From contig JAULSN010000007.1 of the NCBI GenBank assembly GCA_033439765.1, forward strand, positions 682,001 through 746,000: DNA of 64,000 nt, given 5' to 3'. Origin of the DNA: Lasiosphaeria ovina (lineage: Eukaryota > Ascomycota > Sordariomycetes > Sordariales > Lasiosphaeriaceae). A model generated the notes under the pieces. The model was given only the letters and a program-made list of their open reading frames with translations. It was not told where the DNA came from and did no database searches. The position numbers and the translations under genes were made by a program. This document shows positions 1-37,991 of this stretch, piece after piece. How positions within the stretch are numbered: the stretch's first letter is position 1; each line of letters begins with the position of its first letter.

Positions 1-2838
1 CGAGCAGCAGCAGCGGCGTGCCTCCTTCGTCCACTATTATCGTGAGCTCGACCTCGCTGCCACCGGCGTCGAGCGCGCCCCCGGACCCCACCTGCAGCTT
101 CACGTCGGTGACGTGCGTGACCACGACCACGGTCGACGTCATCTTCCGCCGCGGCGTCGTCACGAGCTGCGACACGTTCTGCTACACGCCCTCGTCGTCG
201 GTTGCCGTCACCGTGGTGTCGAATTCGTCGTCGAGCAGTGCGGTCCCGTCGTCTGTGTTTTCGTCGGTGTTCTCATCGGCGCCGCCGAGTGCGGTTTCGT
301 CCAGTGTGGTTTCATCGGCGGCTTCATCTCTAGTGTCGTCTTCCTTTCCAACATCTTCGTTATTTTCTTCGGTGTTTTCTTCATCTGTGCCAGCGTCGTC
401 TTCGGCATTTTCTTCATCCTCGGTGTCGTCATTCTCAGTGTCGTCGTCGTCATCATCAGCGTCGTCCTGGTCGTCCTCGGTCTCGCCATCGTCGTCCTGG
501 AGCTCATCGACCACACCAATTGTATCAACATCCTCACCAAGTTCGAGCACGGTTTCTTCAAGCCAAGCACCGATCATCAGCTCAACTCCAAGTGCACAAA
601 GCAGCACGACAAGTAGCACGACGAGTACCACGTCTAGCTCCAGCTCCAGCTCCAGCTCCAGCTCCAGCTCGAGCTCGGTGGTCACAACGCCTGGCACCAC
701 GACAACCCCGACCACAAGCCACAGCTCAACGGCGCCAACTTCAGCAGCATCAACCACATCTATCTCCTTGACCCCTCCAGCCAAAGTCCTGGTCGTCTCA
801 TCGTCACCCCCGAGCTCGACGGTGACTCTGGTCTCCTCCACCGCCAGTAGCCACAGCGCCAGCAGCACCAGCAGTATCAGCGGCACCACCAGCAGCACCA
901 GCAGCACCAGCATCAGCCCCAGCAGCAGCACCCACAGCACCACCTCACCTTCCAGCTCAACACCAACCTCCCTTCCCCCCACCACCACAACAACAACACC
1001 ACCCACCACCCACGCCATCCCCACCGTAGCCTTCGACTCCGCCGCCCCGTCCAGCACCACAGCACCACTAATCGCCATCGTTGGCAGCAACACACCAAAC
1101 AACACCACCAGCAACACCCCGCACGCCAACCGCGAAGGCGACTTCGCCATCTGGCCGTCGGGCTGGGGCGCGCGGCAAGCGATCGCATCCAACTTCGCGC
1201 CCGTCATCGCCGCGCGCGGCGCCACGCTGGTCCTCGGCGCGCTGTACAGCCAACTCGCGCTGCACGAGCCGGTGCGGCAGCTCGTCTCGGCCTCCGGGAT
1301 CTCCGGCGGAGCCCTCGCCGGCTCTTCCGGGTCCTGGTTCGGCGCGGCGGCGGTCGTGACGCAGCTCGGCAGCGCTTTCGCGGGCGGGGCATCGTTTGTC
1401 GACACGACGTATTGTCAGAGTGGTCCAGGATCGGGGGGCGACCTCAACCCGTGCGTGCCGCGCGTCAGCGTGAACCGCTGGGTGCTGGACGTGCTGGTTG
1501 TAGTGTGTGTGGTGCAGCTGGGCGCGCTGGCGGGGGCGGTGGCCAAGTGGTTCCAGAAGCCCGGCGGGCTGGCGGCGGACCCGACGACGATCGCCGGTGT
1601 CGCCGTCGTCATGGGCCATCCCGAGGTCGAGAGGTTGTTTGCCGCGCTGCCGGGCGACGCGTCGCACCAGGAGCTCAAGGCGGCGCTGCGAGGCCGCCGG
1701 TTTCGGTTGGGCGCTTTTGTCACCGAGGCCGGCGTGGAGAAGTACGGGATCATGCCGGTGCCGGAGGAGGAGCTGCCCAAGAAGAAGAAGGGTGGGCCGT
1801 GGGTGAGCGTTGGTGAGAGGCTGGCGGGGGTGCGTGAGAGGCTGGCACTGTTCGAGAGCTGGCAGCACAGCCGGCTGTTTGTCGATATGCTATTCGCGGC
1901 GCTGCTGCTCGCGCTGCTGGGGCTCGCGCTCGCGGCGCTTGCGAGCGTCGACAACCCGCAGTCTGTGTTCTTTGCGGCCGAGTTGTCGGCCGGCGGGCCC
2001 GGCGGCACGGCTATGAAGATCCTGTTTGCGCTGCTGGGCGTCGCCGTGTCGGCGTACTGGGGCCGGCTGTTCCAGGGTGCGTTGCCCCCCCTCCCCCCCC
2101 CCTTTCTACTGCGTACAATGTAAACTGAATAAATGACTTGTTGGTGTAGACACGCAGACATTCACGCCGTACTTCCCGCTGCGCGAGGGCGAAGCGCGGC
2201 CGGCGCCGACGATCCTGCTCAACCGGCACACGAGCCCGCTGTGCGCGCTGCTGCCGCTGGCGCGCAACGGGCACGTGGCGGCGGCGTCAGTGGCATTCAC
2301 GGGGCTGGTGGCCGAGTTCCTCATCATCTGTCTGTCGGGGCTGCCGTACCGGCCGGGCCAGCTGCGGAGTGAGTTTGTGTTCTGCGGCGCGGCGAGCGCG
2401 GGCATCCTGTGCCTGATGCTCGCGCAGTTGGCCCTCGTGATGCTGTGGCGCCGGCGGCTGCCGCACCTGCCGCGGCGGCCCGACTCCATCGCCGCCGTCA
2501 TGACGTACGTGGCGGGCACCGCCATGGTGCGAGACTTCTGCGGCCTCGAGAGTCTTACTACCCGCCAGCGCAACAAGGCCATCCGCGACATGGGCAAGGT
2601 CTATGCCTACGGCTGGCGGCGCGAGGCTGGCGAGGATGGGCGTGCTATCGTGCGCTGGGTCGTCGACGAGGTGCCCGGCCAGCAGCTCAAGTTGGCCGCT
2701 GACAGCTGCGGCATGTCGGCTCGCTCGCGTCTTAGTGTTGACAGGCCCGAGAGCCGGGACAAGCCTCCCCTTCCCCAGGCCCAGCAGCGCGAGTACGCTC
2801 CCGCGCATGGGTACTACGGCTACGAGAGGCCGGTGTAG
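1..2838 (+). CDS. Ser/Thr-rich multi-pass membrane protein, DUF3433-like (5' partial)
   Basis: Seen: the frame is open to the left edge, so the start lies outside the window. Exon 1 ends at 2076 and exon 2 runs 2150-2838; intron 2077-2149 is GT-AG with a C/T-rich middle and a CTGAAT branch-like site, and splicing keeps the frame. The N-terminal ~360 visible residues are almost only Ser, Thr, Pro and Val, as in O-glycosylated cell-surface stalks. Then come several hydrophobic segments (around 'VLDVLVVVCVVQL', 'FAALLLALLGLALAAL', 'MKILFALLGVAVSAYWG' and, in exon 2, 'FTGLVAEFLIICLSGLPY' and 'AGILCLMLAQLALVMLW'). The exon-2 part, with PYFPL, a conserved NRHTSP-like stretch and the paired membrane segments, resembles the fungal DUF3433 membrane family. 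Inference: plasma-membrane or wall-associated protein with a mucin-like ectodomain; function unknown. Odd: family members usually carry two DUF3433 units, but here the front half is low-complexity. Confidence 0.75.
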
Positions 2839-3638
2839 ATGGATGACACGTAGTTGGAGTCTTGGATTTTTGTGTAGATGAGTAATGGACAAATGATTTA
2901 CAATTCTTTTGGCTTGTCGTGTATGTTTTAGATGGATGGCTTAAGCCAAAGAAAAAACAGGATACACAGCTTTCCGTTACCTCAGTGACAGGCGACCAGT
3001 CAAACAGTCAGCCCCGCCACTCAGTTTCTCATGGACTTCGATGTAGCATGACCGGCGCGTTCTTCATTCTCCTTACTTTGCTCGGTGTGATGGGAAAGAT
3101 GTCTACCTTGTTGTTGGTGGGTGGGACTGAAGCGAAGGAGCCGGTTTTGATTGGAAGGGCCAGGGGGTGTATTTACATCTATCTCCACCACATATTTGCA
3201 CTCGCTCTAGTCTATCGATATCAAGTCTGAAGGAAACAGGGCTAAGGGGGCGAGAGGGGAATGAAGGGGAAGAGGAAGCACCGATGGGCAATTACAATAG
3301 CAATGAGAGGCGGTGTTGGAGAGGGCAATTAAGGGGGCAAGGGCAAGGGCAAGGGGGATGTGATGTGGAGGGGATGTGGAAGGGAAATACTAGTGCAAGG
3401 GATGTGTGAGCCCGGGGAGTGTACAGAGACAAATCAAAGAACAAAAACCAGCCCTATTAAATACAACGCCAAACCCTCAAGGCCCAGTCCTAAAAGACAA
3501 ACCCCATCTCAACTTCACAGAAATCTCGACGTCATTCAAACTAAGAAAATGGTCAGCCACACCACCGTCTCACTCATACATCAAAGACACCACTCACCGC
3601 TCGAGTCTGTCCAAACAAGCTCACGCACACGACGAGAC
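2839..3638. other. intergenic, no gene seen
   Basis: Convergent spacer between the membrane protein and the minus-strand microprotein. It holds purine-rich GGGCAAGGGCAAGG repeats near 3330-3360 but no frame with homology or coding character that I can defend. Confidence 0.5.
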
Positions 3639-3833
3639 CTAAAACTTGATCCCGCCGACAGCGCCACCAACCTGGCCCGCAACACCGCCAGCCTGACCCC
3701 CCACATTGTTGCCTGCGCCAACCACGGCTCCCGCGCCCTTGTTCGCCACATTGCCGGCCTCTTTGCCGGCTGTACCGGCGGCGCCCTTGGCAACGTCCAT
3801 GGCAATATCTTGCTTGGAGAAGCAGCTGCCCAT
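3639..3833 (-). CDS. 64-aa Gly/Ala-rich protein with N-terminal lipidation signal
   Basis: A single-exon 64-residue frame starting MGSCFSKQ. Gly2, Ser6 and Lys7 fit the N-myristoylation consensus, and Cys4 is a likely palmitoylation site, the dual-lipid pattern of many membrane-anchored signalling proteins. The rest is Gly/Ala/Val/Asn-rich with repeated GxxxG-type spacing (AKGAAGTAGKEAG..., VGGQAGGVAGQVGGAVGG), which could form a glycine-zipper helix or stay disordered. I do not recognise a named family. A 23-base G run (C run in sense) lies about 110 nt upstream in the probable leader. Inference: small peripheral membrane protein on the cytosolic face. The first-residue pattern and unbroken frame argue for a real gene; the short length keeps doubt. 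Confidence 0.6.
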   Translation of the reverse strand: MGSCFSKQDIAMDVAKGAAGTAGKEAGNVANKGAGAVVGAGNNVGGQAGGVAGQVGGAVGGIKF

Positions 3834-5266: not shown

Positions 5267-7813
5267 CTAGTCGACAACGCCCTTTGGCAGTATCGCGACA
5301 TAGTCCAGCGGCGCCGGCTCGTTCCCGTCGGCCAGGCCAATGATCTTGAGCACGTCGCCCCGCTTGACGTCGACGTCTGGGATGGTGATGCGGGTGGCCG
5401 AGTGAGCGTCGAGCTTGGTCGAGAATTCGTGGCCCAGGCGGTCCTCGAGATCGCCATACCACTCGTGCAGCGGCTCGCCGTTCAGGAAGGCACCGTAGTG
5501 CGCCCGGCCACCAGCAACATCGAAGTAGCCGACGGCGACGTCGTACGTGCCCGAGGGGAAATCCAGCACCGCTGCGGCCTCGCCTGACCCATTATTGTTG
5601 GGGCCCGAGCCGACGACGATGGCGGTGAAATTCGACGCGGCCTCGAACGGGTCGACGGCCACGGGCCGGTAGCCGCCGCTGAGCGCCATGCTCTCAGCCT
5701 CGATGCGGTACGGGTGGTGGCCGACGCGGCCGGCCTCGTCGGCGATGCCCGAGAGGTTGTAATAATAGCCGGCAACGGCGTCCCGCCACACGAGCGCGTG
5801 ACCCGCCTGGAACCGCAGCTTAAATAGCACGTCGTCAAACCGCTCCCCGTCTACCTTGCCCTGCAGCGACTGCCACGCCGGCACAAACGTCTGTGCCGTC
5901 GCGGCGCCGTCGTAGTGGGCGTCGTAGAAGTGCTGAATCACTGTCTTGCCCGAGTGCAGGCGGTGCGTGTAGTTAACGTGATGGAACCACAGAAGGAAGT
6001 TGTCAGGAGTCGTCTCGAGATTCTCAAACACGGCGGCCACCTCGGGAGGATACTGGCCCGAGTTGCCGGTGCCGTTGGACACGGTTCTGTCCATGCCGAT
6101 CGTGCTTTTGTCGGCACGCGTCCACTGGCCCCATCGGTTCTCTTGGCACTGCGGACAGGGGCCAAAGTGTGTGTAAAGAATGTCGGTCAGCGTCTGGATG
6201 CCGAGGTTGCCCGTGTAGTTCTCATAGGCTGGCCACGACGCCATGGAAATATCCGTGATGACCTTGACCACGCTCGGCTCCGACCCAAACGTGAGGCGGA
6301 TCCAGTCCTGCAGAAGAGACTGAATATCTCCCGTGGGATCCCAGGCCAGGCGGCCGTAGGCGTACAGATTCGACATGGCGAGGTGGCTGCCGAGCCAGTT
6401 CGGGTTGGTTCCAACGTTGACGACGCCGGCATACCCGCCGAGGGTACGGCTGAAGCGCTGACCCGAGACAATATCGCGGACGAGAGAGGGCTTGCTGCCG
6501 ACCCTCATGTCAAAGTCCAGGATGGTCTTCCACAGCGGCGGTATATACACCAAGTGGTCCTGCTGACCTAGATATTCCTGCGTGATCTGGAGCTCGATGG
6601 CCGTGTTGGTGTTTGGCAGGTGGGCAAACAACGGCGACGCTGGCTCTCGGACCTGGAAGTCGATGGGCCCGTACTTGATCTGGACGATGACGTTGTCGAG
6701 GAACTCGCCGTCCAGCTCCTTGAAGAAGTCGTAGGCAGCGTTGGCCCTGTCGTCTTTCCACACGGCCGGGTTCATGTTGGAGTTGTAGACAAAGGCCCTG
6801 AACATGATGATGCCACCGTGGGGCCGCAAAGCCCGGGCGAACAGATTCGCGCCGTCAGCGAGCGTGCGGTTGTATGTCAGCGGCCCGGGCTGCCCCTCGG
6901 AATTGGCCTTGACAAGATATCCCGCCCAGTCTGGAATTTGCTGATAAATCTGATTTGTCTTTGCTTCCCACCAGGCAATTACGGTCGGGTCCAGAGGGTC
7001 AAAGGTGGCGGTTTCTTTCAGCCCGTCAGGCCCCGGAGAAGCAAAGTTGAGCGAGATGCCCACCCTGATCCCGTATGGACGCATGGAATCAGCAATCCGC
7101 TTCAGGCCGGCAATGGTCTCGTTGGTCAGCATCCGGGGGTTAGCGTTGACGTTGTTGACGATAATGCCGTTGATGCGAACTGAGGCGAGCAGGCGGGCAT
7201 ACTGCGACACTCGGGTCAAGTCGGTGGCGACCGAGCCGTTGGCAAAGAAGATCGAACGTCCCGCGTAGCCCCTCTCAATGGTGCCGTCCATGTTGTCCCA
7301 TTCGTTGACCCAGCGGATGGGAGCGTCAGGGTTTGATACAACGTCGGCATCGGCAAAGTTTCCCTGGGCGATCCTCGACAAGTACTCGAACGCCCCGTAC
7401 AGCGCACCCCGCTCATTCTGGCCAACTATGGTCACAGCGCCGCCCTTGATGTTGAGCCAAAAGCCATCTGGTGCAAAATCGGTGCTGAGGCTCTGGCTAC
7501 CAAGTTTGTTGTATGCCGAGAGCGTGCCGACCAAGACAAAGGACGAGTTAGATGAAGTCGAGGTCGAGTGCTCGTGTGAAATCTCGAGCTTTCGCCCCAA
7601 GATCCGTTGGATTCCGTCCTGAAGTTCCTGTCCGGCCGTATAGACGGGACTCGTGCTGGTCGAGTTCAGGGCGACAATGAGGGGCGGAAGTGACGATGCA
7701 TATTGCTGTCGCTGACCGTCAGGCAGCGATGCGTATCGCAGCCAGCCACTGAGACCGTTCTCGGCAACCGCGACGCCAGCCACGAGAGCCAGCAGTCCCC
7801 AGCGAGCTCTCAT
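5267..7813 (-). CDS. aguA: Secreted alpha-glucuronidase, GH67
   Basis: Intronless, 848 residues, the usual length for fungal GH67 enzymes. It removes 4-O-methyl-glucuronic acid from the non-reducing end of xylo-oligosaccharides, working with xylanases outside the cell. Seen: an N-terminal signal peptide (hydrophobic core ALVAGVAVA, likely cut near residue 17), the catalytic-acid motif ANSEGQPGP with Glu306, then GPIDFQVRE with Asp385 and ITQEYLGQ with Glu413. The 306/385/413 spacing matches that of characterised bacterial GH67 enzymes (acid Glu plus an Asp/Glu pair 28 residues apart), so the active site looks intact. Many NxS/T sequons fit a secreted glycoprotein. The ATG at 7813 is chosen because the signal peptide follows directly. 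It is divergent from rpt4, sharing a ~1.2-kb intergenic region with a TATA box and XlnR/CreA-like sites. Confidence 0.95.
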   Translation of the reverse strand: MRARWGLLALVAGVAVAENGLSGWLRYASLPDGQRQQYASSLPPLIVALNSTSTSPVYTAGQELQDGIQRILGRKLEISHEHSTSTSSNSSFVLVGTLSAYNKLGSQSLSTDFAPDGFWLNIKGGAVTIVGQNERGALYGAFEYLSRIAQGNFADADVVSNPDAPIRWVNEWDNMDGTIERGYAGRSIFFANGSVATDLTRVSQYARLLASVRINGIIVNNVNANPRMLTNETIAGLKRIADSMRPYGIRVGISLNFASPGPDGLKETATFDPLDPTVIAWWEAKTNQIYQQIPDWAGYLVKANSEGQPGPLTYNRTLADGANLFARALRPHGGIIMFRAFVYNSNMNPAVWKDDRANAAYDFFKELDGEFLDNVIVQIKYGPIDFQVREPASPLFAHLPNTNTAIELQITQEYLGQQDHLVYIPPLWKTILDFDMRVGSKPSLVRDIVSGQRFSRTLGGYAGVVNVGTNPNWLGSHLAMSNLYAYGRLAWDPTGDIQSLLQDWIRLTFGSEPSVVKVITDISMASWPAYENYTGNLGIQTLTDILYTHFGPCPQCQENRWGQWTRADKSTIGMDRTVSNGTGNSGQYPPEVAAVFENLETTPDNFLLWFHHVNYTHRLHSGKTVIQHFYDAHYDGAATAQTFVPAWQSLQGKVDGERFDDVLFKLRFQAGHALVWRDAVAGYYYNLSGIADEAGRVGHHPYRIEAESMALSGGYRPVAVDPFEAASNFTAIVVGSGPNNNGSGEAAAVLDFPSGTYDVAVGYFDVAGGRAHYGAFLNGEPLHEWYGDLEDRLGHEFSTKLDAHSATRITIPDVDVKRGDVLKIIGLADGNEPAPLDYVAILPKGVVD

Positions 7814-15009: not shown

Positions 15010-18000
15010 CATCCCCGCCGCCATCTCGGCCTCTCCCAGTTGCAGCTGTCATTCGCTAATTCCTGGAACATCTTGGCCAGAGCCGGCGTGAAGCTGCCAG
15101 CATCTCTGCGGCAATATTCGACGCTATGAGAGATGCTTAGAGTCATGCCATCAGCGCCGGCGCTCTCCCAACATGGCTGCCGGCACTCTCGCCCATTTTC
15201 CTTCTCGAGCGCCTGTCTCGGAAAAATCGGCCCAAACTGTCGGAAGAATGGCGGCGATGTCTAGTCGACTACGCAGTTGCGTTGACGACGCTCCAGCTAG
15301 CCGAGAGGCTACTTTAGGCGCTCGACAACGGTGGTGAGAAACGGGTAATAGAGGAGCTCCGCAACGTCGGCCACCAGGACTGGTGCCCTATGGAGTTCCC
15401 AGATTGGCTGCTGTTCGAGGTGGATTACGGGTTCCTTATCATCCGCCCTGGCCAAGCGCGCATCGCACTCTCCATGATCAATCTGCCCGGTGGACGCAGC
15501 TGCGTCATGCAGCTCAGCATGGGAGAGGGCAAATCGTCCGTTATCATCCCCATCGTGGCCGCCGAGCTTGTCAACGGGCCTCGCCTAACCCGCGTCATCG
15601 TGCCCAAGTCGCAGTCGAGGCAGATGATGCATACATTGGCATGTGCCCTGGGTGGTTTGTTGGATCGACAGATATATCGACTACGCCACTCCCGGGACAC
15701 CTGGAGTTCCTTCTACTACAGGAGATGCGCGGGGGCATAGTCTTGTGCGAACCCGAGAGTCTATTGTCGTTCAAACTGTCAGCCCTAGAATCTACATTGG
15801 GCGGCAAGGATGAGGCCACTTCGGTCCAAGACCACTTCCGGTCCATTTTAGAAACGCAGTACCTCTTTGACAAGGATTCGAGGGACGTCATCGACGAAAG
15901 TGACGTCGTCTTCAGCACCAAGTCGGAGCTCACATACACGATGGGACAAAAACAGACGGCCGATTTCAGCCCTTGGAGAAGGCGTCTGATCGAGAGCATC
16001 CTCGGGCTGGCGGCCGAGACAATCCCGAAGCTCTCCCAGCAGTATCCTGACAAGTTTGAGGCGGACTCCAAACGCATCAGAGTCTTGGATAGGTCGGCAT
16101 CTCGGATGCTTGCGGAGCAGCTTGCGCAGCGCATCCTCGATGGGGAGCTCCCGGAATTCTCACACGTAACAGGCCAGGAAGCACACATCCGGGAGGCGAT
16201 GCTACAGTACGTCCTGGAGGCCGAGCCGGCAGCGGACGCCATCGCAACGGTGGAAGAGTCATTCCGTAGGGCCCACGGCAACCAAATACTCTTGCTCCTC
16301 CGGGGCTTGATCGGCCGTGGGGTTCTCTCGCACTCGCTCCGGAAACGGTAGGGTCGACTACGGTCGAGCTCACGACCGGAGCCCGCCTACGGGGCTAGCA
16401 GTCCCGTACCGGGCCAAAGACACACCCGCCCGGCAGGCCGAGTTCAGCCATCCCGACGTCGTCATCATCCTGACGTACCTAAGCTACTACTACGGCGGCC
16501 TGAGCCCCGCCGATCTCGCATCCGTACTCGAGTACCTTTCTGCATCCGCAGAAGGCAAGAACGAGTATGCATCTTGGATGGAGTCGGCACCCGGCAGGAC
16601 CGTCCCCGAAAAATTCCGCGGACTAGACAGCATCACCACCGAAGACCCAAGTCAGTACGAAAATGATGCTTTCTTTGCCTTACGTTACCTTAGGCCGGCA
16701 ATCAACTACTACTTGTCTGAAATGATCTTTGCCAAAAAATTGCTAGAGTTCCCCCAAAAGTTGTCCGATTCGCCTTGGTCTATAGCCGTGACCAAATCCC
16801 AGGGTCATCCAACAATAGGCTTCAGCGGCACCAACGACGCCAATCGCCTCTTGCCCCTGGGGGTTGAACCGATAGGTCTGGGGGAGCAGAAACATACCAA
16901 CGCTCTGGTGCTCAACTGCCTGCTCCACCCCGACAACGAGGTGCAAGACATTCGCGAGCCGTTACCAGCCGTCGGCCCCCGGTCATCGCCGCACCACAGC
17001 GGCCCACCGCCGGCCAACGAGATCCTCCACCACGTTGCCAGATTCAAGCCGAAGATTCGCGCCATCCTAGACGCCGGCGCGCAGATCGTGGGGCTAGGGA
17101 ACGGCCAAGCCGCGCGGTGCTGGCTGGAGCTGGTGCCAGACGAGGACATCAGAGCCGCCATCTTCTTCAACGCGGCCGAGGACTTGTGCGTCGTGGAGCG
17201 GGACGGCACTACCGAGCCGTTTCTGACGTCCTCGTACGTAACCAACACAGCCGCTTACATCGTCTTCCTCGACCAGGCCCACACCCGCGGCACCGATCTG
17301 CGCCTACCTAACCACTACCGTGCGGCCGTGACACTCGGACCGGGGCTGACGAAAGACAGGCTGATGCAAGGTGCGTAGCCATTCCCCTTTCACTATAACC
17401 CGACCCTACGTAGTGCCTGCCTTACCTTGCCAGAGGTGCGGTAAGGTACTAGTATCTTGCTGATTCGCTGGCTAAACGCGAATTGCCTTACCTTAGCATG
17501 TATGCGTATGCGGCAGTTGGGCAAAGACCAGTCTGTGGTTTTCCTCGTGTCGGCCGAAATGCGGCGAAGCATCACCCGGCTCTGCAATATCAATGAGAGC
17601 AGCGAAATCAAGGTGGCAGACGTGCTGTACTGGGCCGTGTGTGAGACGTGGCGGGAACTCGAAAGACTCGCGCCGCTGTGGGCTACGCACGACATACGGC
17701 GCCAACGCCAGCAACTCCTCTGGGACAGAGCCGGTACGGACAGGGACAAAACCTGTGATCCGGACCGGCGGTATAGGTTTGAACCCCGGACCGCGGCGCA
17801 GTTCCTCGAGAGCGAGTCCCAGACACTGCGAGAGCGCTACCACCCCAGCCAAGAGCAGGCACGGCCGACCCTTACCGGCGAGATTGCTAACCTGGATGCT
17901 GCTCTCGACGCGAAAGGCGCCGAGCTGGCCCAGATTCGGGAGCGATGCCTCGAATTCGGAGTCGACAGCCTGGCTACCTCGGCTTCCCATGAGGAGCACG

Positions 18001-20466: not shown

Positions 20467-21663
20467 TCAGAGACACTGGGAGTAATACGCATTAGACACG
20501 GAGCAGCTCGAGCCGCTCGCACACACAGTGCACCCAATGTATCCGCTGCCGCCGCACTGGCCGTACTTGGCGACGACGCACGTCACAGGTGTCGTGGTCG
20601 TGCTGGGTGCCGCAGAGCGCGTCGACGTCGACAGCGTCGTGCTGCTGGAGGTGGTGGCGGGCTTGGCGGTCGAGGTCGAGGTCGAGGTCGAGGGCTGGGC
20701 GGTTGTCGCCCCTGGCGTCGTGACCGGGTTGCTGCCGGAACTTCCGCAGCTCCAAACGGCGGGCCCCGGTACTGTGTAGTTGTTGAAGTTTGTGTAGATC
20801 TGTGCCTGGCGTGTCAGTGCATCTGTGGCATGGCTTGTTTTGAGATTGGTAGCTGTTAGTGGCTCACATTCACCGTGTAGCCTGGGTCCGTGTCTTTGAA
20901 GGCGCCGGGGATGAGAACGGTCGGACCTGGGGCTGCGCTTCCTCCCCCCGTCACCGTGATTTGTGCGCACGACACGTAGAACTGCGGGATTCCGGCCGGC
21001 CACGGGTTGTGGATGGCAAGGGACTGGATGCGAAGAAGGTAGTCCCCGTTTGCGAGGCAAGACGGAATGTTGTACGAGTAGGACCCTGCAAATTGGTGAG
21101 CAAACGACAATAGTAGAGAGAGTGCGACGCGGGATTGTCTGTCTCACCGGCCATGTTCCATGTTGCTGATCCGCCGCTGAAGCTGGGGCCTGTTTTCTGT
21201 CAGCAAATGCCATTCCCTGCGGCGCCGGAAGAGCAAACAACTCACCCCAGTCGTAGATCTTGAACCAGCCCCCGCTTCCGTCATAGTCTGAGGCAGCACC
21301 CGGAGCCTTGGACATGTATCTGATTTGTGTTAGATGCCCCCTATTCAGCGACTAGTTACTGGGGCGAGGTGGCACCAACAGTGAGACGGGGCCTTGGTGA
21401 TAGACGGGCGTGTCCAGATCAAAGGTGAACTTGTCGCCCGCCTTTACTGTGACGGTGTCGGTGACCTTGCCGTTTGCGCCCACATTGCATCTCAGATCGG
21501 TTGAGTTTAGTTCGACAACCGGCTGGTTGAAGTTTGAGTTTGCTCGGATGTACTTTTCAACGGCGTATTTGGCTGAGCCAATGGACAGCTGCTGGAAGAT
21601 GTAGTGGGCCGAGACCTGGCTGACGGTCAGTGACAGGGCCGCGAGAGGGGTGATTTTCTTCAT
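20467..21663 (-). CDS. AA9 lytic polysaccharide monooxygenase with CBM1
   Basis: Five exons read right to left: 21380-21663, 21246-21319, 21148-21189, 20868-21085, 20467-20799. The introns (60, 56, 62, 68 bp) restore the family alignment; the first donor is GTTGGT. Product 316 residues. Signal peptide residues 1-19 ends VSA, leaving His20 as the mature N terminus; with His89 in YHQGPVS this gives the copper histidine brace, and Tyr170 in QFYVSC is the axial Tyr. The catalytic domain is about 20-230, then a Ser/Thr linker, then a C-terminal CBM1 (about 284-316; [10 protein letters not shown]...[12 protein letters not shown]) with paired Cys and aromatic residues. It cleaves cellulose oxidatively with a reductant and peroxide or oxygen, outside the cell. 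No lesion seen, although both neighbours toward the left and right are pseudogenes. Confidence 0.95.
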
Positions 21664-27224: not shown

Positions 27225-29442
27225 ATGAGAGCCGCAACTCTAACGCGACGATTGCTTCTCGTGCTTGGCAGCGGTGCTCTCGCCGAGGACTTCCTTGTTG
27301 GCTATGGCAACTATCCCTACGACCCTGTTTGTGCTCAGTCGTGTCTGCAGGCCTTCCGGCCTTACCTGCTCAACTGCTCCAACTTTGAGGCAGCCAAGAA
27401 GCCCTTCGATCCGCTGACGCCGGCCACGTCCCCAAGCTGTTATGCAAGCGACGCGCCGTTCTTGACGTCGGCCGCGTGGTGCCTCAACACCAAGTGTCCC
27501 GACGAGAGCATTGCCAAGCTCGAGGCTTACTGGCAGCAGGGCCTCAGCGGGCTCAAGACGGTGCCTCCCAGATGGGCCTACTCGGTCGCCTTGGACAAAG
27601 TCAACCCCAAGCCGCCGACATACCAGCTGACGTTCAAGGACGTACTCCTCAACCAGACCTCGCTCGTCGTCGAAGCCTCGTACCTGAGCAGCTGGAACGG
27701 TATGACTGGCTTGTATAACGAGGAGGTTGACGAGTCCAAATTTGGGTTAGCTACTCTACTCTCTGCCACGCGCAAGCCCCCCCCCCCCCCCCCCCAGCGT
27801 TGCTAAACCAAGAGCAGCATCATCATCCTCGTCGTCGCTATTGGCCTCCCCGTCGTACTGACCTGGGTCCGCGTACTGCCATTCGCGCAAGCCATTTTAG
27901 ACCGGGTATGTTGACCTCTCCAAGTCCACCACGACAGCCATTGAAGGCCATCATCTCTGACTCTCCCAGATAAACCCCTACCTTGTGTATCCATCCATCT
28001 TCGGCACTTTCCACACCCGTCCGCTCCCCTTCCTCCTCGGCAACGTCCCTACCATTGGCCAGTCCCTCTACCTTGCCGTCTTCATCATCCTGAACGTTTT
28101 GCTGAGTGCGGTGGACTACAAGTCGCTGGAACCCAACGCCTTCTACCTCACGCAGTACAAGGAGGTGGTTAACTACATTTGCATCCGGACCGGCGCCTTC
28201 GCTTTCGTGCTCATGCCGGTGCTGCTACTCTTCTCGTCGCGCAACAATGTGCTGCTCTGGCTCAGCAACTGGCCGCACTCGACCTTTGTGCTCCTGCACC
28301 GCTGGGTTGCACGCCTGTTCATGGTCTACGCCATCGTTCACTCCATCACGGCCCTGCGCATCTACCGCGCCTTCGAGGAAACACCCTGGTGGTACTGGGG
28401 CATCGTCGCAACCGTGTTGACCGTCGCCCTAAATGTCTTCAGTGGTCTGTACATCCGCCGCTCACAGTATGAGCTCTTCCTCATCTCCCACGTCGTCCTG
28501 GCCGTGCTTGTCATGGTTGGCAGCTGGTATCACCTCATCGGCTGGTATGCGTACCTAGGCAAGACCATCGCGAAGCACAATACGTTGGGCTACGAGCTGT
28601 GGCTGTACTTTGCGGCGGCCGTGTGGTTCTTTGACCGCCTGGTCAGGGTTGGCAGAATTTTGAGATGGGGCCTGCAGCGGGCGCGCGTCACCGAGCTCGG
28701 TGGCGGTTACCTGCGCGTCGACCTTCCCGGCGTGCGCTGGGGCGCGGAGCCGGCCAGGCACGTGTTTGCCTACTTCCCGACGGCCCGCCCGTGGACGCCG
28801 TGGGAGAATCACCCGTTCTCGGTCGTGCCCACCAGCTTTCTGCAGGGCGTGGTTGTCCCCGTCCCCAAGGCCGCCAAGCCCGAGCCTCATGCGGGCGACG
28901 AGGAGAAACAGCTTGCGACCTCGCACGCGTCATCAACAACCCCGCCGCCGACTGATGAGGCTGGTGTCGCTACCGGGATCACGCTATTCGTCAGGAAGTC
29001 GGCAGGCTTGACAAGCTACTTGAAGCCGAACTCAAGTCTGCTCACCCTTCTGGACGGCCCGTACGCGAGCAGTGGGTCTACTCGTGAGGTTCTGCAGTGC
29101 GACCGGGTGCTCATCATTGCAGGCGGCATTGGCATCACTGGCGCGCTGCCGTGGGTACACAGCCACCTGAACCTGAAGCTGGTCTGGAGTGTCAAGGAGA
29201 CAGGGCGCGGCCTGGTGGATGCGGTTGACCTGGGACGGGTGGCGACCAAAGAGGTCAGGATCGGATCGCGGTTCGACCTGGATGCGCTGCTTGCCGAGGA
29301 GGAGAGCGCCGGGTGGGCTCGTGTGGGTCTTGTCGTGTGCGGGCCGGGCAGCCTCTGCGACGATGCGCGGGCTGCTGCCGTGGCCGCGGGGAGACGGGGC
29401 AAGACTGTCTTTGAGCTCGAGGTTGATGCGTTTTCCTGGTAA
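27225..29442 (+). CDS. Ferric/cupric reductase transmembrane component (FRE family)
   Basis: Three exons: 27225-27745, about 27818-27905, 27970-29442; about 693 residues. The first acceptor may instead be 27814, since both keep the frame. Signal peptide ending near residue 20 (GSGALA|EDF), then a Cys-rich extracellular domain (~25-170), then the ferric-reductase membrane domain with both bis-heme pairs: LHRW...IVHS and ISHV...YHLI, each His-x13-His. The FAD site HPFSVV and NAD(P)H motif GGIGIT follow, and VCGPGSLCDDAR is near the C terminus. Role: passes cytosolic NADPH electrons over FAD and heme to reduce Fe3+ or Cu2+ at the surface for uptake. Length and motifs are typical. Intron 1 contains a 19-base C run. 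The stop is directly followed by a (GT)n run in the 3' region. Confidence 0.93.
27777..27795. repeat. poly(C) run in ferric-reductase intron 1
   Basis: Nineteen consecutive C, just upstream of a TGCTAAAC branch-like site, so it may serve as an extreme pyrimidine tract. Confidence 0.9.
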
Positions 29443-33521: not shown

Positions 33522-35156
33522 CACAGGGTTGCTGTAGTGAACTAGATACTAGATACTACAGCTGGGCATAGCGGAAGCGGGCCGTGCAGAGTAGGTCCGA
33601 GTGAGCCAAAGCACTGGTTATAACAGCAGGGTGGAGGGAAGCAAGACGACTTGCTCTGTGTGACTCTGCCACAGAGACTGGACTATAGGGAACTATGCCC
33701 CCTGTAGTCGACCTCACCAAGACCGTAGGTGTAACAGGCGGTGTAACGGGTTGAGCCCTACAGTGGCCTTGGCAACCCACGGCCGTGGCATCGTCATGGG
33801 AGGGTGGGGAGACGCACAGCAAACCCCTGATGAAGCTATTCCCATTGTGCGCGTCGCGCGCGCCAACTGTCGGAAGAAGCCGCATTTGAGCCACATGTGG
33901 GCGTAGGTGGCGTATATGCTAGACCACCTACGGCCTAAGCTATGTAAGCCAAATGCCGCACATACCTACAGGATCTAGGCTATGCCCACCTTTCTTTCTT
34001 CTTCTTAATACAAGCACTCTTTTGCCCTCATCATGCATACCGTTGTATGTGACACCAACCGACCCCGGCAACACGCCCGGACCACTTCGTTTCCTCTGAT
34101 CAGAGGGCGAGTGCCGCTCGGTTCCATTTTCTTCTTTTCTCTTCCTCATGTTCCGCGTACTCGTTTCATTATAGTGTGCAAACACCGGTTTCTCGTTGTG
34201 CCCAGTCAAAGTATCCTATTGAATCCGAGGCTTATTCAGGCAAGCTGAAGCGGTCTATTTGCGGAGACCTGAGAGAACTTGAGCGAGAAAGTCATCCACA
34301 AAGGACACTGTGCAGGTGCCTGATGACCGGCTTGTATAATTTAATAACGTAAGTTGCTATTTTTGGGCCCATTAGTCCGAGTTCTACCCTCCCTAAGATC
34401 GGGGAAGGCGTTTCCTCACCCCAGATGGACCGGCTCGTATTTGGTATTAACTATACCCTCAGGCTGTGTCTCGGTAGATCGCAGGCGATTGAAGCCTTAC
34501 ATACCTCGGACTCTTCGTTGTTTGCTCATGAGTGAGCGGTATTTGCCGTCTGCCACCGTACAACTCGTCCGTGTTATCTAAGTGTGATAGTGTGGATAGC
34601 TCAGCCATGAAACAACAATGCTCATCCCCGACGACGGACTTGCGCTAGTGATAAAAATAGGTAACCAGCACTCTTTGACGCCCAATCACTGCCATAAACA
34701 ACCATAAGCATAAACTTTGAAGGGGTTGTCTTGGCGGGAGCCTAACAGAACTCGAAATCCCGACAGTGGGAGGCTACCGAAACTATTGGGCATCTGGTGA
34801 CTCTTCGGCGTTCTCCCCGTCCAGCCGTATCCCGTCCAGCCGTACCCCGTCCTCAGCCGTACCCCATCCTCAGCCGTATATTCTTGCAACGCATGATCTC
34901 GCTATCGTACAATTATGGCTGAAGCTAACAGCCACTCAGAATACCCTCCCCTCCCCCCCCCTTTTTTTTTTTTCCTCGGTGAGACCGTAACAGTTAGTGA
35001 TGGTCTTGAGTCTTCACAAATGAAGACTGCAAGAAGAAAACCTAAAACCTATAAAGATGTCCTTTCAAGACACCCAGCTTAAACAATTTGGATGCACCAT
35101 ACTCAGTACAATCATCGGTAGTCTCTATTTGGTAACCTCTCCTAGCCTAAGCCAAA
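33522..35156. other. intergenic with minisatellite, no gene seen
   Basis: No family-bearing frame. It holds a tandem repeat at 34816-34879 and a T run near 34962-34973 close to the promoter of the VWA gene. Confidence 0.45.
34816..34879. repeat. 15-17-bp tandem repeat, four units
   Basis: Two units of CCCGTCCAGCCGTAY followed by two of CCCRTCCTCAGCCGTAY. Confidence 0.85.
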
Positions 35157-37241
35157 ATGCAACTGGCGCTCGCAATTCTCCTCATGCTCCCCTTCTCTTT
35201 TGCCCAGCCTGCAGAAGAGAAGCAGGCTGTGGAGCAGTGGTTACTCTAGCCGCTTGCGAGCGTTGATGGCTTATTCCCCCAGCCATGGATGTGCGGCGGG
35301 GTGTCGCCGAACCCGCAGAGCATCCTCCAGTTGCACGAAAACTGGCACTGCACCAACAAAAACGGCGTTCCCGAAAATTTTGGCAATCGTTTCTTCGGGT
35401 TCCACAAGCAGTTCCTCCAGGGCTTCAATACCTTCCGTGCTTCACATGGCTATCCTCTTGTCCAAGCCTGGGAACCCTATCAGGGGGCTGTCATCCCTAT
35501 AGGCCATAAGGGTCGGCCCGATGGCGCGACCTGCGGCACATGCATCCCACGCCCCCTAGAGTTTAGGGCGCCACCCCAAGGAACACTTGACACATGGGCA
35601 ACGCTAGACGCCCTGGGAAACGCCATCATTTCCTGGCACGACGGGAATCACGGCCGCCTCGCGGCTGCCGGCGGATCAGGGAACTGCGACGGCGGCGGCC
35701 CTGATATTGGGTGTCCGGCTTGGGCGCCTGCCGACCCCATCTTGTACCCGTACCACCACATCTTTGACGAGATCCAAGACGACTGGCGCAAGCTGAAGCC
35801 GGCCGATGTGGCGATCGTCCTGGACCGCTCGGGAAGCATGGACCTGAAGTTGAAGGACACTACACGTCTCGAGGCTGCCAAGGCGGCGGCTGGCCTGTTC
35901 GCCGACCTGGTTGACGAGGACGGCGGCCACAAGGTCGGCATGGTCTCCTTCTCGACGCAGGCAAGCAGCACCCCGGACATGCCGCTGACGCCGGCAGCCG
36001 CGGCACCTGCCGCCCTTGCCGCCGCACTCTCGGGACTCGTGGCATCGGGACTGACGAGCATCGGCGACGGCTTGATCAAGGGCCAGGGCCTGGTCGACAC
36101 GGGCGCTGAGGCGCGCAAGGCCATCCTGCTTCTCACCGACGGCGATGAGAACCAGGGTCCCAAGATTGTGGATGCGTACAAGGTCCTCGGCGACACGCAC
36201 GTATGCTCGGTCGGGCTCGGCACGCCCATGACGCTCAACGGACCCAAGCTCCAGCAGCTGAGCGAGCGCCAGGGCGGCATCTACATCAGCACGCCCGACG
36301 ATCTCGCGCTGAAAAAGTACTTTGTCTTTTGCTTCGCCAACATCTTTGACAGCTTCGTGGCCGAGGACCCGCTCGACACCTTGGGTCCATCGGAGCTCGT
36401 GTCGCCGCCGACCGTCCACCGCGCCCAGGGCGACGAGAAGATCACGTTTGTCCTGGGCTGGAGCGGTGGCAACAATACAGCGTCCGACGGCCTGCGCTTA
36501 GCCATCACGACGCCGTCTGGCAGCGTGCTCGACCTCGACGGCCGCCCGGGCGTGACGAGCAAGATCGGCCCGTCTTGGCATGTCGTCAAGGTCAAGACGC
36601 CGTACGACGGCGAGACGGACGGCGACTGGGTCGCGCGGGCGGTTCGGCCGGTGCACGCGTACGTCAACGGTTTCACCTCGCGCTCCTTTGTCAACTTTAC
36701 CCAGGGGCTCGACCTGTTCCGGTTCGAGCTGTCGACCATCTGCGGCCCAGGCTACGTCCGGTGCCGCAACATCTTGTACTGGGAGGACCTACCACCGCCG
36801 CCATTCTTAGCCTTCTCCCGCCTGTCGTTCGAGTCGCAGTCGTCCATCTATGCGGCGGGCCTGCTGCAGATGGCCGGGCGCGGCATCCTAGGTAATGTGA
36901 CCAAGCCGCAGAGCGCGACCGAGTTCGCGCGGGCGCTGGGCGACGTTGAGAAATACGACCTGGTCGTGTACAGCTCGCAGTTCACCAACGAGTCGCAGCC
37001 CTATGACGGCCCGCTGGCCGACGCGCTCTGCTCCAAGCGCGTCCGGGCCATCGTCAGCGACAACCGCCGCACGTCAGGGGCCGCGCGCATTCTGTCTTGC
37101 AACCACTCATTCCCGAGCCTGCGATATACCCTTGAGAGGACAAGTCTTTTCAATCACCTCCCGGATAGAAGCTCTAACCATGGTACGCGTTTCATGACCA
37201 AACTCAGCAGCTGTCTACTGGGAGAGTCGCTTGGAAGGTAA
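35157..37241 (+). CDS. Secreted protein: tyrosinase-like (type-3 copper) region fused to VWA domain
   Basis: Proposed exons 35157-35228 and 35283-37241. Exon 1 encodes a signal peptide (MQLALAILLMLPFSFA|QPAEEKQA). The 54-bp GT-AG intron 35229-35282, with a TTGAT branch-like site, removes an in-frame TAG and keeps phase 0. Product 676 residues. The N-terminal ~150 residues show HENWHC, FFGFHKQFLQGFN, SWHDGNHG (HxxxH) and DPILYPYHHIFDEIQDDW, in the order of the CuA and CuB histidine sites of tyrosinase-like proteins. A VWA domain follows directly with MIDAS DRSGSM, SGLTSIGDGL and LLTDGDENQG, then a ~350-residue beta-rich C-terminal part (no clear family). Known: VWA binds ligands through a metal; type-3 copper sites bind oxygen. 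Inference: extracellular metalloprotein. The exact copper ligands are uncertain, as one CuA His is not obvious. An alternative reading of the TAG is a Gln-to-stop mutation. Confidence 0.75.
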
Positions 37242-37390
37242 ATCATGGCGAGATTGTGCTTTGGTTTTGCTCGTATTGCTCGTTCTCGTTTACCTTGCCT
37301 TGTCTTGCCGCATTCCCTTCTCCGCGCTGTGGATCGTGTGCACTCCGGGTCAGGTTAGGTAGGTGCAGGTTACAGAACGAAAAGCTAGGC

Positions 37391-37520
37391 GAGATATTGT
37401 ACGAGCGCCCCCAGCCTGTTCCCGGCCTGGAAGCGCTTCCGTCCGAGCTCATCCTCTGCATCCGGGACTTCCTCCCACCCGCCTCACGAGTCGCCCGCGC
37501 GCTCACAAGCTCAACAATCA
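37391..37520 (+). pseudogene. F-box fragment
   Basis: The frame reads LEALPSELILCIRDFLPPAS then RVARALTSS, a match to the fungal F-box pattern (LPxEI...I..FLPPxS...LxLT). It is followed by sequence without the usual F-box-protein body, and frames shift. Probably a decayed F-box gene; the fragment is short. Confidence 0.45.
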
Positions 37521-37991
37521 TGAAATTTGAAAAAGGCACGAGAAATCGCGTTGGAGACTGGTACAACAGCCACGATCGTGACCCGATAGGCGACGACCAC
37601 CCATCTCACTCGGACCGATTCAAGAGCGCAACTCGACATTTCTCGTCCGCTGCGATAGCTGCGAACTGCTCCACAGCCCGCCCTACACATTGCACAGTGT
37701 ATTCGGCTCCCGTCATGACACCCTCCTCGGAATGGTATACACCATCTGTACCCTGTCCTCCTACAATCAATGGTCCGCGCCGCTGCCAAGAGACACCGGC
37801 TCGGCTTTCCGAATGAAGTCCTCAAAAATGAACCCCTAAACCGGTCTACGCGCTGTAACGTGCCCGGCTCCCAGGTTCGTCGAGTATAGGTCCTCCTAGG
37901 TCAAAGTTATCGACGGTTGCACCCTTGTCAAGCAAGAGATTATCATCCGACACCAAGATATATCCCCGAGACGCCTCTGGTGGGATAGCGA

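Follow-up and report, generated by a model that had tools for sequence, protein, structure and literature searches.

A hemocyanin/phenoloxidase-like copper domain on a von Willebrand factor A scaffold in Lasiosphaeria ovina: a probable recent pseudogene of a family most likely acquired from bacteria

What kind of protein joins an array of copper-type histidines to a von Willebrand factor type A (VWA) domain in Lasiosphaeria ovina, a wood-inhabiting fungus, where does it come from, and is its gene still intact? The locus lies in the 64,000-nucleotide stretch analysed here (the window; positions 682001-746000 of contig JAULSN010000007.1, in a genome of 51.7 Mb and 32 contigs), at positions 35157-37241 of the forward strand. 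A sequence-only reading had proposed that this frame encodes a secreted protein with a tyrosinase-like copper domain fused to a VWA domain. The reading that we favour, with moderate confidence, is that the protein is a secreted phenol oxidase with two coppers, carried on a VWA chassis, that it originated in bacteria and passed to fungi, and that the L. ovina copy is probably a pseudogene of recent date.

Translation and motif search recover HENWHC, FHKQFL, HDGNHG, DPILYPYHHIFDEI and DRSGSM, all in one frame. They mark the following parts of the protein:

35283..35807, forward strand: hemocyanin/phenoloxidase-like type-3 copper domain (alignment, histidines, predicted fold)
35334..35348, forward strand: CuA ligands H1 (35334) and H2 (35346) in HENWHC, spacing H-x3-H
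35403..35405, forward strand: CuA ligand H3 in FHKQFL
35637..35651, forward strand: CuB ligands H1 (35637) and H2 (35649) in HDGNHG
35754..35756, forward strand: CuB ligand H3, the first His of YHHIFDEI
35805..36275, forward strand: VWA domain, PF00092 match, residues 173-329 (Pfam; fold of the relative P0002)
35823..35840, forward strand: DRSGSM motif of the metal ion-dependent adhesion site (MIDAS)

All six copper histidines are present in the window domain, and homologues keep them: in an alignment of 68 rows they are complete in 62 of the 62 rows that cover all six, the other six rows being incomplete (four retain the CuB half, two neither half). A structural protein that has lost its copper, also suggested at the outset, is unlikely for the family because the six histidines are conserved. 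A chance motif match was rejected: a profile built from 42 relatives that lie outside the fungal clade gives the 178-residue N-terminal domain of the window 217.7 bits, compared with 6.9 bits for the highest-scoring of 1000 shuffles. Of 66 rows, 45 have Asn as the HisB1+1 residue, 16 have Gly, four Asp and one Val; an Asn at this position is described as an activity controller in tyrosinases in the cited part of one report (PMC10526336).

The predicted fold agrees with the four-helix core of type-3 copper proteins, as had been supposed; neither of the two outcomes named beforehand as refuting that reading, a different N-terminal fold or unconserved histidines in homologues, came about. The label tyrosinase-like fits this core but not the subclass, since predicted fold and alignment place the domain nearer to the phenoloxidase/hemocyanin of arthropods than to tyrosinase. 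The second CuA histidine, aligned to 3hhs_A, is shifted and gives the H-x3-H spacing of Manduca phenoloxidase in 62 of 62 rows. Only 2 of 62 rows carry a His as in the CuA pattern H1(n)H2(8)H3, which defines the tyrosinase alpha subclass in the cited part of a 2013 survey (PMC3658974). A control for the alpha pattern by regular expression found its strict form at one of eight loci and a looser form at four; the other four yielded no CuA candidate by this means, possibly because of introns. Searches with hidden Markov models, which the sequence-only reading had called for, matched PF00092 (1.7e-9) but left the copper part of the window (35289-35810) under the PF00264 cut-off of 22.6 (E 0.12, 13.2 bits), and the fold score with tyrosinase is also lower. 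The family also differs from arthropod prophenoloxidase/hemocyanin (beta subclass, PF00372) in its ~180-residue domain, its putative signal peptide, its VWA chassis and its bacterial members. Unlike in hemocyanin, no hemocyanin N or C domain was found: the window open reading frame has no match at E<=1 to PF00372, PF03722 or PF03723, the last two of which we take to represent these domains. Across the L. ovina genome PF00372 has no match at E<=0.1, in a search that introns weaken and in which 1 of 14 control genomes matched, below the cut-off. The putative signal peptide, judged by eye, conflicts with the beta subclass as described, without one, in the cited part of the 2013 survey (PMC3658974).

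Some results weigh against a copper oxidase of the phenoloxidase/hemocyanin type. PF00264 matches the copper domains of 12 of 12 relatives at E<=1 (best 8.8e-8), some exceeding its cut-off, and PF00372 those of 3 of 12 (best 0.0025). In addition, the lowest whole-sequence E-values belong to three hemocyanins of 3300-3400 residues, presumably molluscan and of the alpha type, and are summed over 8-9 weak repeats of at most ~14 bits each. An ordinary alpha-type tyrosinase domain that has drifted, with no special relation to phenoloxidase/hemocyanin, would account for these matches; set against the displaced CuA histidine, we regard it as rather improbable. The fold matches also include hexamerin or storage proteins (rows 12-14, 16 and 19 of the fold search), all of which we take to be hexamerins without copper, the hexamerin name being shown for row 12 only. 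Moreover, the fold is no proof of copper chemistry, as the fungal hemocyanin-like zinc enzyme AsqI is a precedent for a non-oxidase (PMC6053404, in the part cited). The protein might thus be a metal-dependent non-oxidase or a silent oxygen or metal binder, using zinc or copper for Lewis-acid chemistry or storage, with adhesion through the VWA domain as its main work. AsqI, however, is a biosynthetic cyclopenase that retains site A alone and binds zinc there, with no VWA reported in the cited part of that work (PMC6053404), whereas here all 62 rows that cover the two triads have both of them complete, as for a working di-copper site; we judge this alternative unlikely. In the oxidase reading that we prefer, the protein would be secreted and loaded with copper, and the compact four-helix core of the N-terminal domain, of phenoloxidase/hemocyanin type, would hold two coppers and oxidise phenolic substrates with O2, while the metal-dependent MIDAS of the VWA domain and the C-terminal beta domains would attach the enzyme to its target, a surface or matrix.

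The direct fusion of this core to a VWA domain with an intact MIDAS is borne out by Pfam (PF13519 2.2e-11 and PF00092 1.7e-9 in the window frame, above cut-off) and by the conserved DRSGSM, the MIDAS residues (DxSxS, T, D) being nearly invariant in the 68-row alignment. Fold searches with the full model of P0002 list almost only VWA matches and are uninformative on the C-terminal domains. The VWA profile resembles that of CLCA, the calcium-activated chloride channel regulator (6pyo 1.2e-13; TIGR00868 1.7e-10), but P0002 reaches only 39.4 of the 900.85 bits required by the full TIGR00868 model, through its VWA part. CLCA has the overall plan of a secreted enzyme domain followed by VWA and beta domains, its N-terminal enzyme being a metalloprotease; in the present family that place is taken by a copper domain or a trypsin-like protease.

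The database search returned 78 proteins at E<=1e-3 and the profile search 455, of which the best 120 were listed; members often have ~985 residues. Among these 120, a trypsin-like protease (PF13365) is found in 44 of the 47 rows P0098-P0144; in related proteins the scaffold accepts other N-terminal enzymes. A protease joined to a related VWA unit was also seen in Chitinophaga (L010:6933-9878, +), in an actinobacterium (L011:4296-7244, +), where a second VWA gene adjoins (616-3786, -), and in Planctomyces (L012:2043-4376, +). Pfam labels a C-terminal thioredoxin/DsbA-like domain in the copper-VWA proteins P0087 and P0091 (~1400 residues). Pfam finds no VWA in a 1199-residue frame with a copper domain and Ig-like, SdrD_B-like and TSP3-like parts (L096:8163-11762, -; L090, from the phylum search around a Caldilineaceae genome), nor in a copper protein with an IPTL-CTERM sorting signal (L095:8485-11121, +; L093, from the search around a Thermoanaerobaculia genome). 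With copper domains lacking VWA and VWA domains carrying proteases, both units thus occur in other combinations. A free-standing copper domain is unsupported: a copper-domain profile search gave 16 proteins of 112-389 residues, and of six inspected, two extend into the VWA domain, the remaining four being short, truncated or frame-shifted pieces. P0158, a 112-residue Fusarium oxysporum fragment that closely resembles the start of the Thelonectria protein, is perhaps another decaying copy. In a genome labelled Myxococcota (L097:1697-6782, -), two genes come after a copper-VWA gene on its own strand: a YtkA-like one, which stays under the Pfam cut-off, and one for a di-haem cytochrome c peroxidase/MauG. 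They make a possible operon in a redox setting at this single locus.

The fungal proteins form one group within this family. In a tree of 89 rows, in which organisms are assigned from the named rows only, all nine named fungi (one of them, Podila P0055, an incomplete record in which the copper region is missing) fall in a single clade of 26 rows with support of 100 by the SH-like approximate likelihood ratio test and with no named bacterium inside. Five bacterial copper members bear names (Nitrospira kreftii, Caldilineaceae, two Deinococcus and a Sphingomonas metagenome-assembled genome), and these lie on successive branches outside the clade. A 44-row tree, made of a selection of these rows with P0159 and P0161, gives the fungal clade an ultrafast bootstrap of 98 and three successively larger clades adding bacterial-side rows 99, 97 and 99. 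A fungal invention was rejected, as the fungal proteins are nested in the trees among sequences that, where named, are bacterial. The L. ovina protein family was most likely acquired from bacteria, and the simplest reading of the trees is one bacteria-to-fungus transfer with loss or later spread; the scaffold would have arisen in bacteria and then entered ancestors of the carrier fungi. That the named relatives outside the fungal clade are bacterial would also be expected from bacterial contamination or a vector-like artefact in the assembly. This was rejected and is extremely improbable: the gene has a single match in the genome, its flanks have one match each, the neighbours include a fungal cellulose-binding-domain protein, and all nine fungal records with names, of which six come from contigs >2 Mb, group in one clade.

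The copper family is rare in the genomes searched. It was found in none of 46 genomes of the taxonomic family of genome G001 (protein query, E 1e-40, without a positive control), in one of six individually chosen genomes, and in at least 1 of 400, at least 1 of 377 and at least 2 of 396 genomes of three phyla. The phylum counts are lower bounds, as at most eight candidates per genome were scored, and the hit in the 377-genome set is the same genome as that among the six. A plasmid search returned two records matching the VWA part only; 32 pattern matches in viral contigs included no relative, and BFVD gave no match at E<=1e-3. Scanning contigs with VWA patterns gave at least 80 loci, of which the three best were read and are all of the protease type; four of eight genomes behind such loci match the copper-VWA protein P0033 (E<=1e-10), with all matches confined to query residues from 242 onward and thus outside its copper domain.

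Is the L. ovina gene intact? The motifs do share one reading frame, but 35157-37241 is not open throughout, codon 31 being TAG. The remaining features of the gene are:

35157..35207, forward strand: putative signal peptide MQLALAILLMLPFSFAQ, judged by eye from the translation
35229..35282, forward strand: 54-nucleotide GT...AG segment (VEQWLL*PLASVDGLFPQ), omitted from the annotated L. ovina protein P0001
35247..35249, forward strand: in-frame TAG (codon 31), the single TAG within the genome match
35289..37241, forward strand: open reading frame of 650 residues
36276..37103, forward strand: rest of the VWA domain and region homologous to the beta and alpha/beta domains of the family (alignment with relatives)
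37104..37241, forward strand: tail without homology (protein alignment)
37358..37813, forward strand: final exon of annotated P0001 (100% match), which does not align with the family C-terminus

The proposal of secretion stands as far as the putative signal peptide goes, seen by eye from the start at 35157, with comparable hydrophobic leaders, also by eye, at the start of many relatives; but the frame from this start is interrupted by the TAG. The 650-residue frame compares with ~985 residues in intact relatives, and homology to the family ends at ~37103 (37100-37115 by alignment). One protein search of the genome, which scored the best candidates only and returned a single match, found neither a further copy elsewhere nor the missing C-terminal third (residues ~651-985 of P0002). 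With these two lesions, the in-frame TAG and the lost C-terminal third, the window copy looks degraded and is probably a pseudogene. What remains of it retains 119 of the 123 strongly conserved positions, and the decay is therefore probably recent. The same retention would suit an intact spliced gene, in which the 54 nucleotides are a real intron, skipped in the public gene model P0001 with the reading frame preserved, and the shortened C-terminus works as a new end of the protein. The skipped segment, however, aligns with coding sequence in relatives (e.g. WLLQPLSSVDGFFPQ in P0002) and has the stop inside; the annotated C-terminus is unlike the family, and the genome search did not recover the absent third. 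The residue at the TAG column is variable (of 68 rows, 14 have Gln, 24 Leu and 10 a gap), so only its coding status is common to relatives. We find an intact gene doubtful; an expressed short form of the protein, which would run counter to a pseudogene, may nevertheless exist.

Around the gene, a 17-bp tandem repeat of 3.5 copies lies ~280 bp upstream (34815-34878). The neighbours are ordinary: pieces of DUF3638/DUF3645 (15383-17378, +), a GH67 alpha-glucuronidase (5267-7813, -), a CBM1 protein (20467-21315, -) and a ferric reductase (27985-29442, +).

As to novelty, no paper on a copper-VWA fusion or on bacterial beta-type copper domains was found among open-licence papers, mostly judged from listings. 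The sequence-only reading knew of no described fungal protein of this architecture; an automatically assigned label already gives it for one protein from a metagenome, P0010. Copper-VWA is an enzyme-VWA architecture for which the literature searched yielded no paper. The bacteria-to-fungus transfer is a well-supported case, and the ~180-residue hemocyanin-like domain offers a minimal core for biochemistry. In the cited part of the 2013 survey, only the alpha subclass was present in the bacteria and archaea examined, and the origin of the beta (phenoloxidase/hemocyanin) subclass was set on the unikont stem (PMC3658974). A bacterial family with a beta-type CuA site and a putative signal peptide challenges this origin and makes that of the hemocyanin-type site testable. 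Since bacterial proteins of the family carry a beta-type copper site, the lineage may have bacterial roots. We raise, as a tentative possibility, that the lineage of the insect melanising enzyme and the crustacean blood protein is rooted in bacterial modular secreted or surface oxidases, not in early unikonts, and moved into eukaryotes more than once. Lignin is modified by a hemocyanin of Limnoria (PMC6277391, in the part cited); if phenol oxidation proved true of the present family, it would bear on the turnover of lignin and humus.
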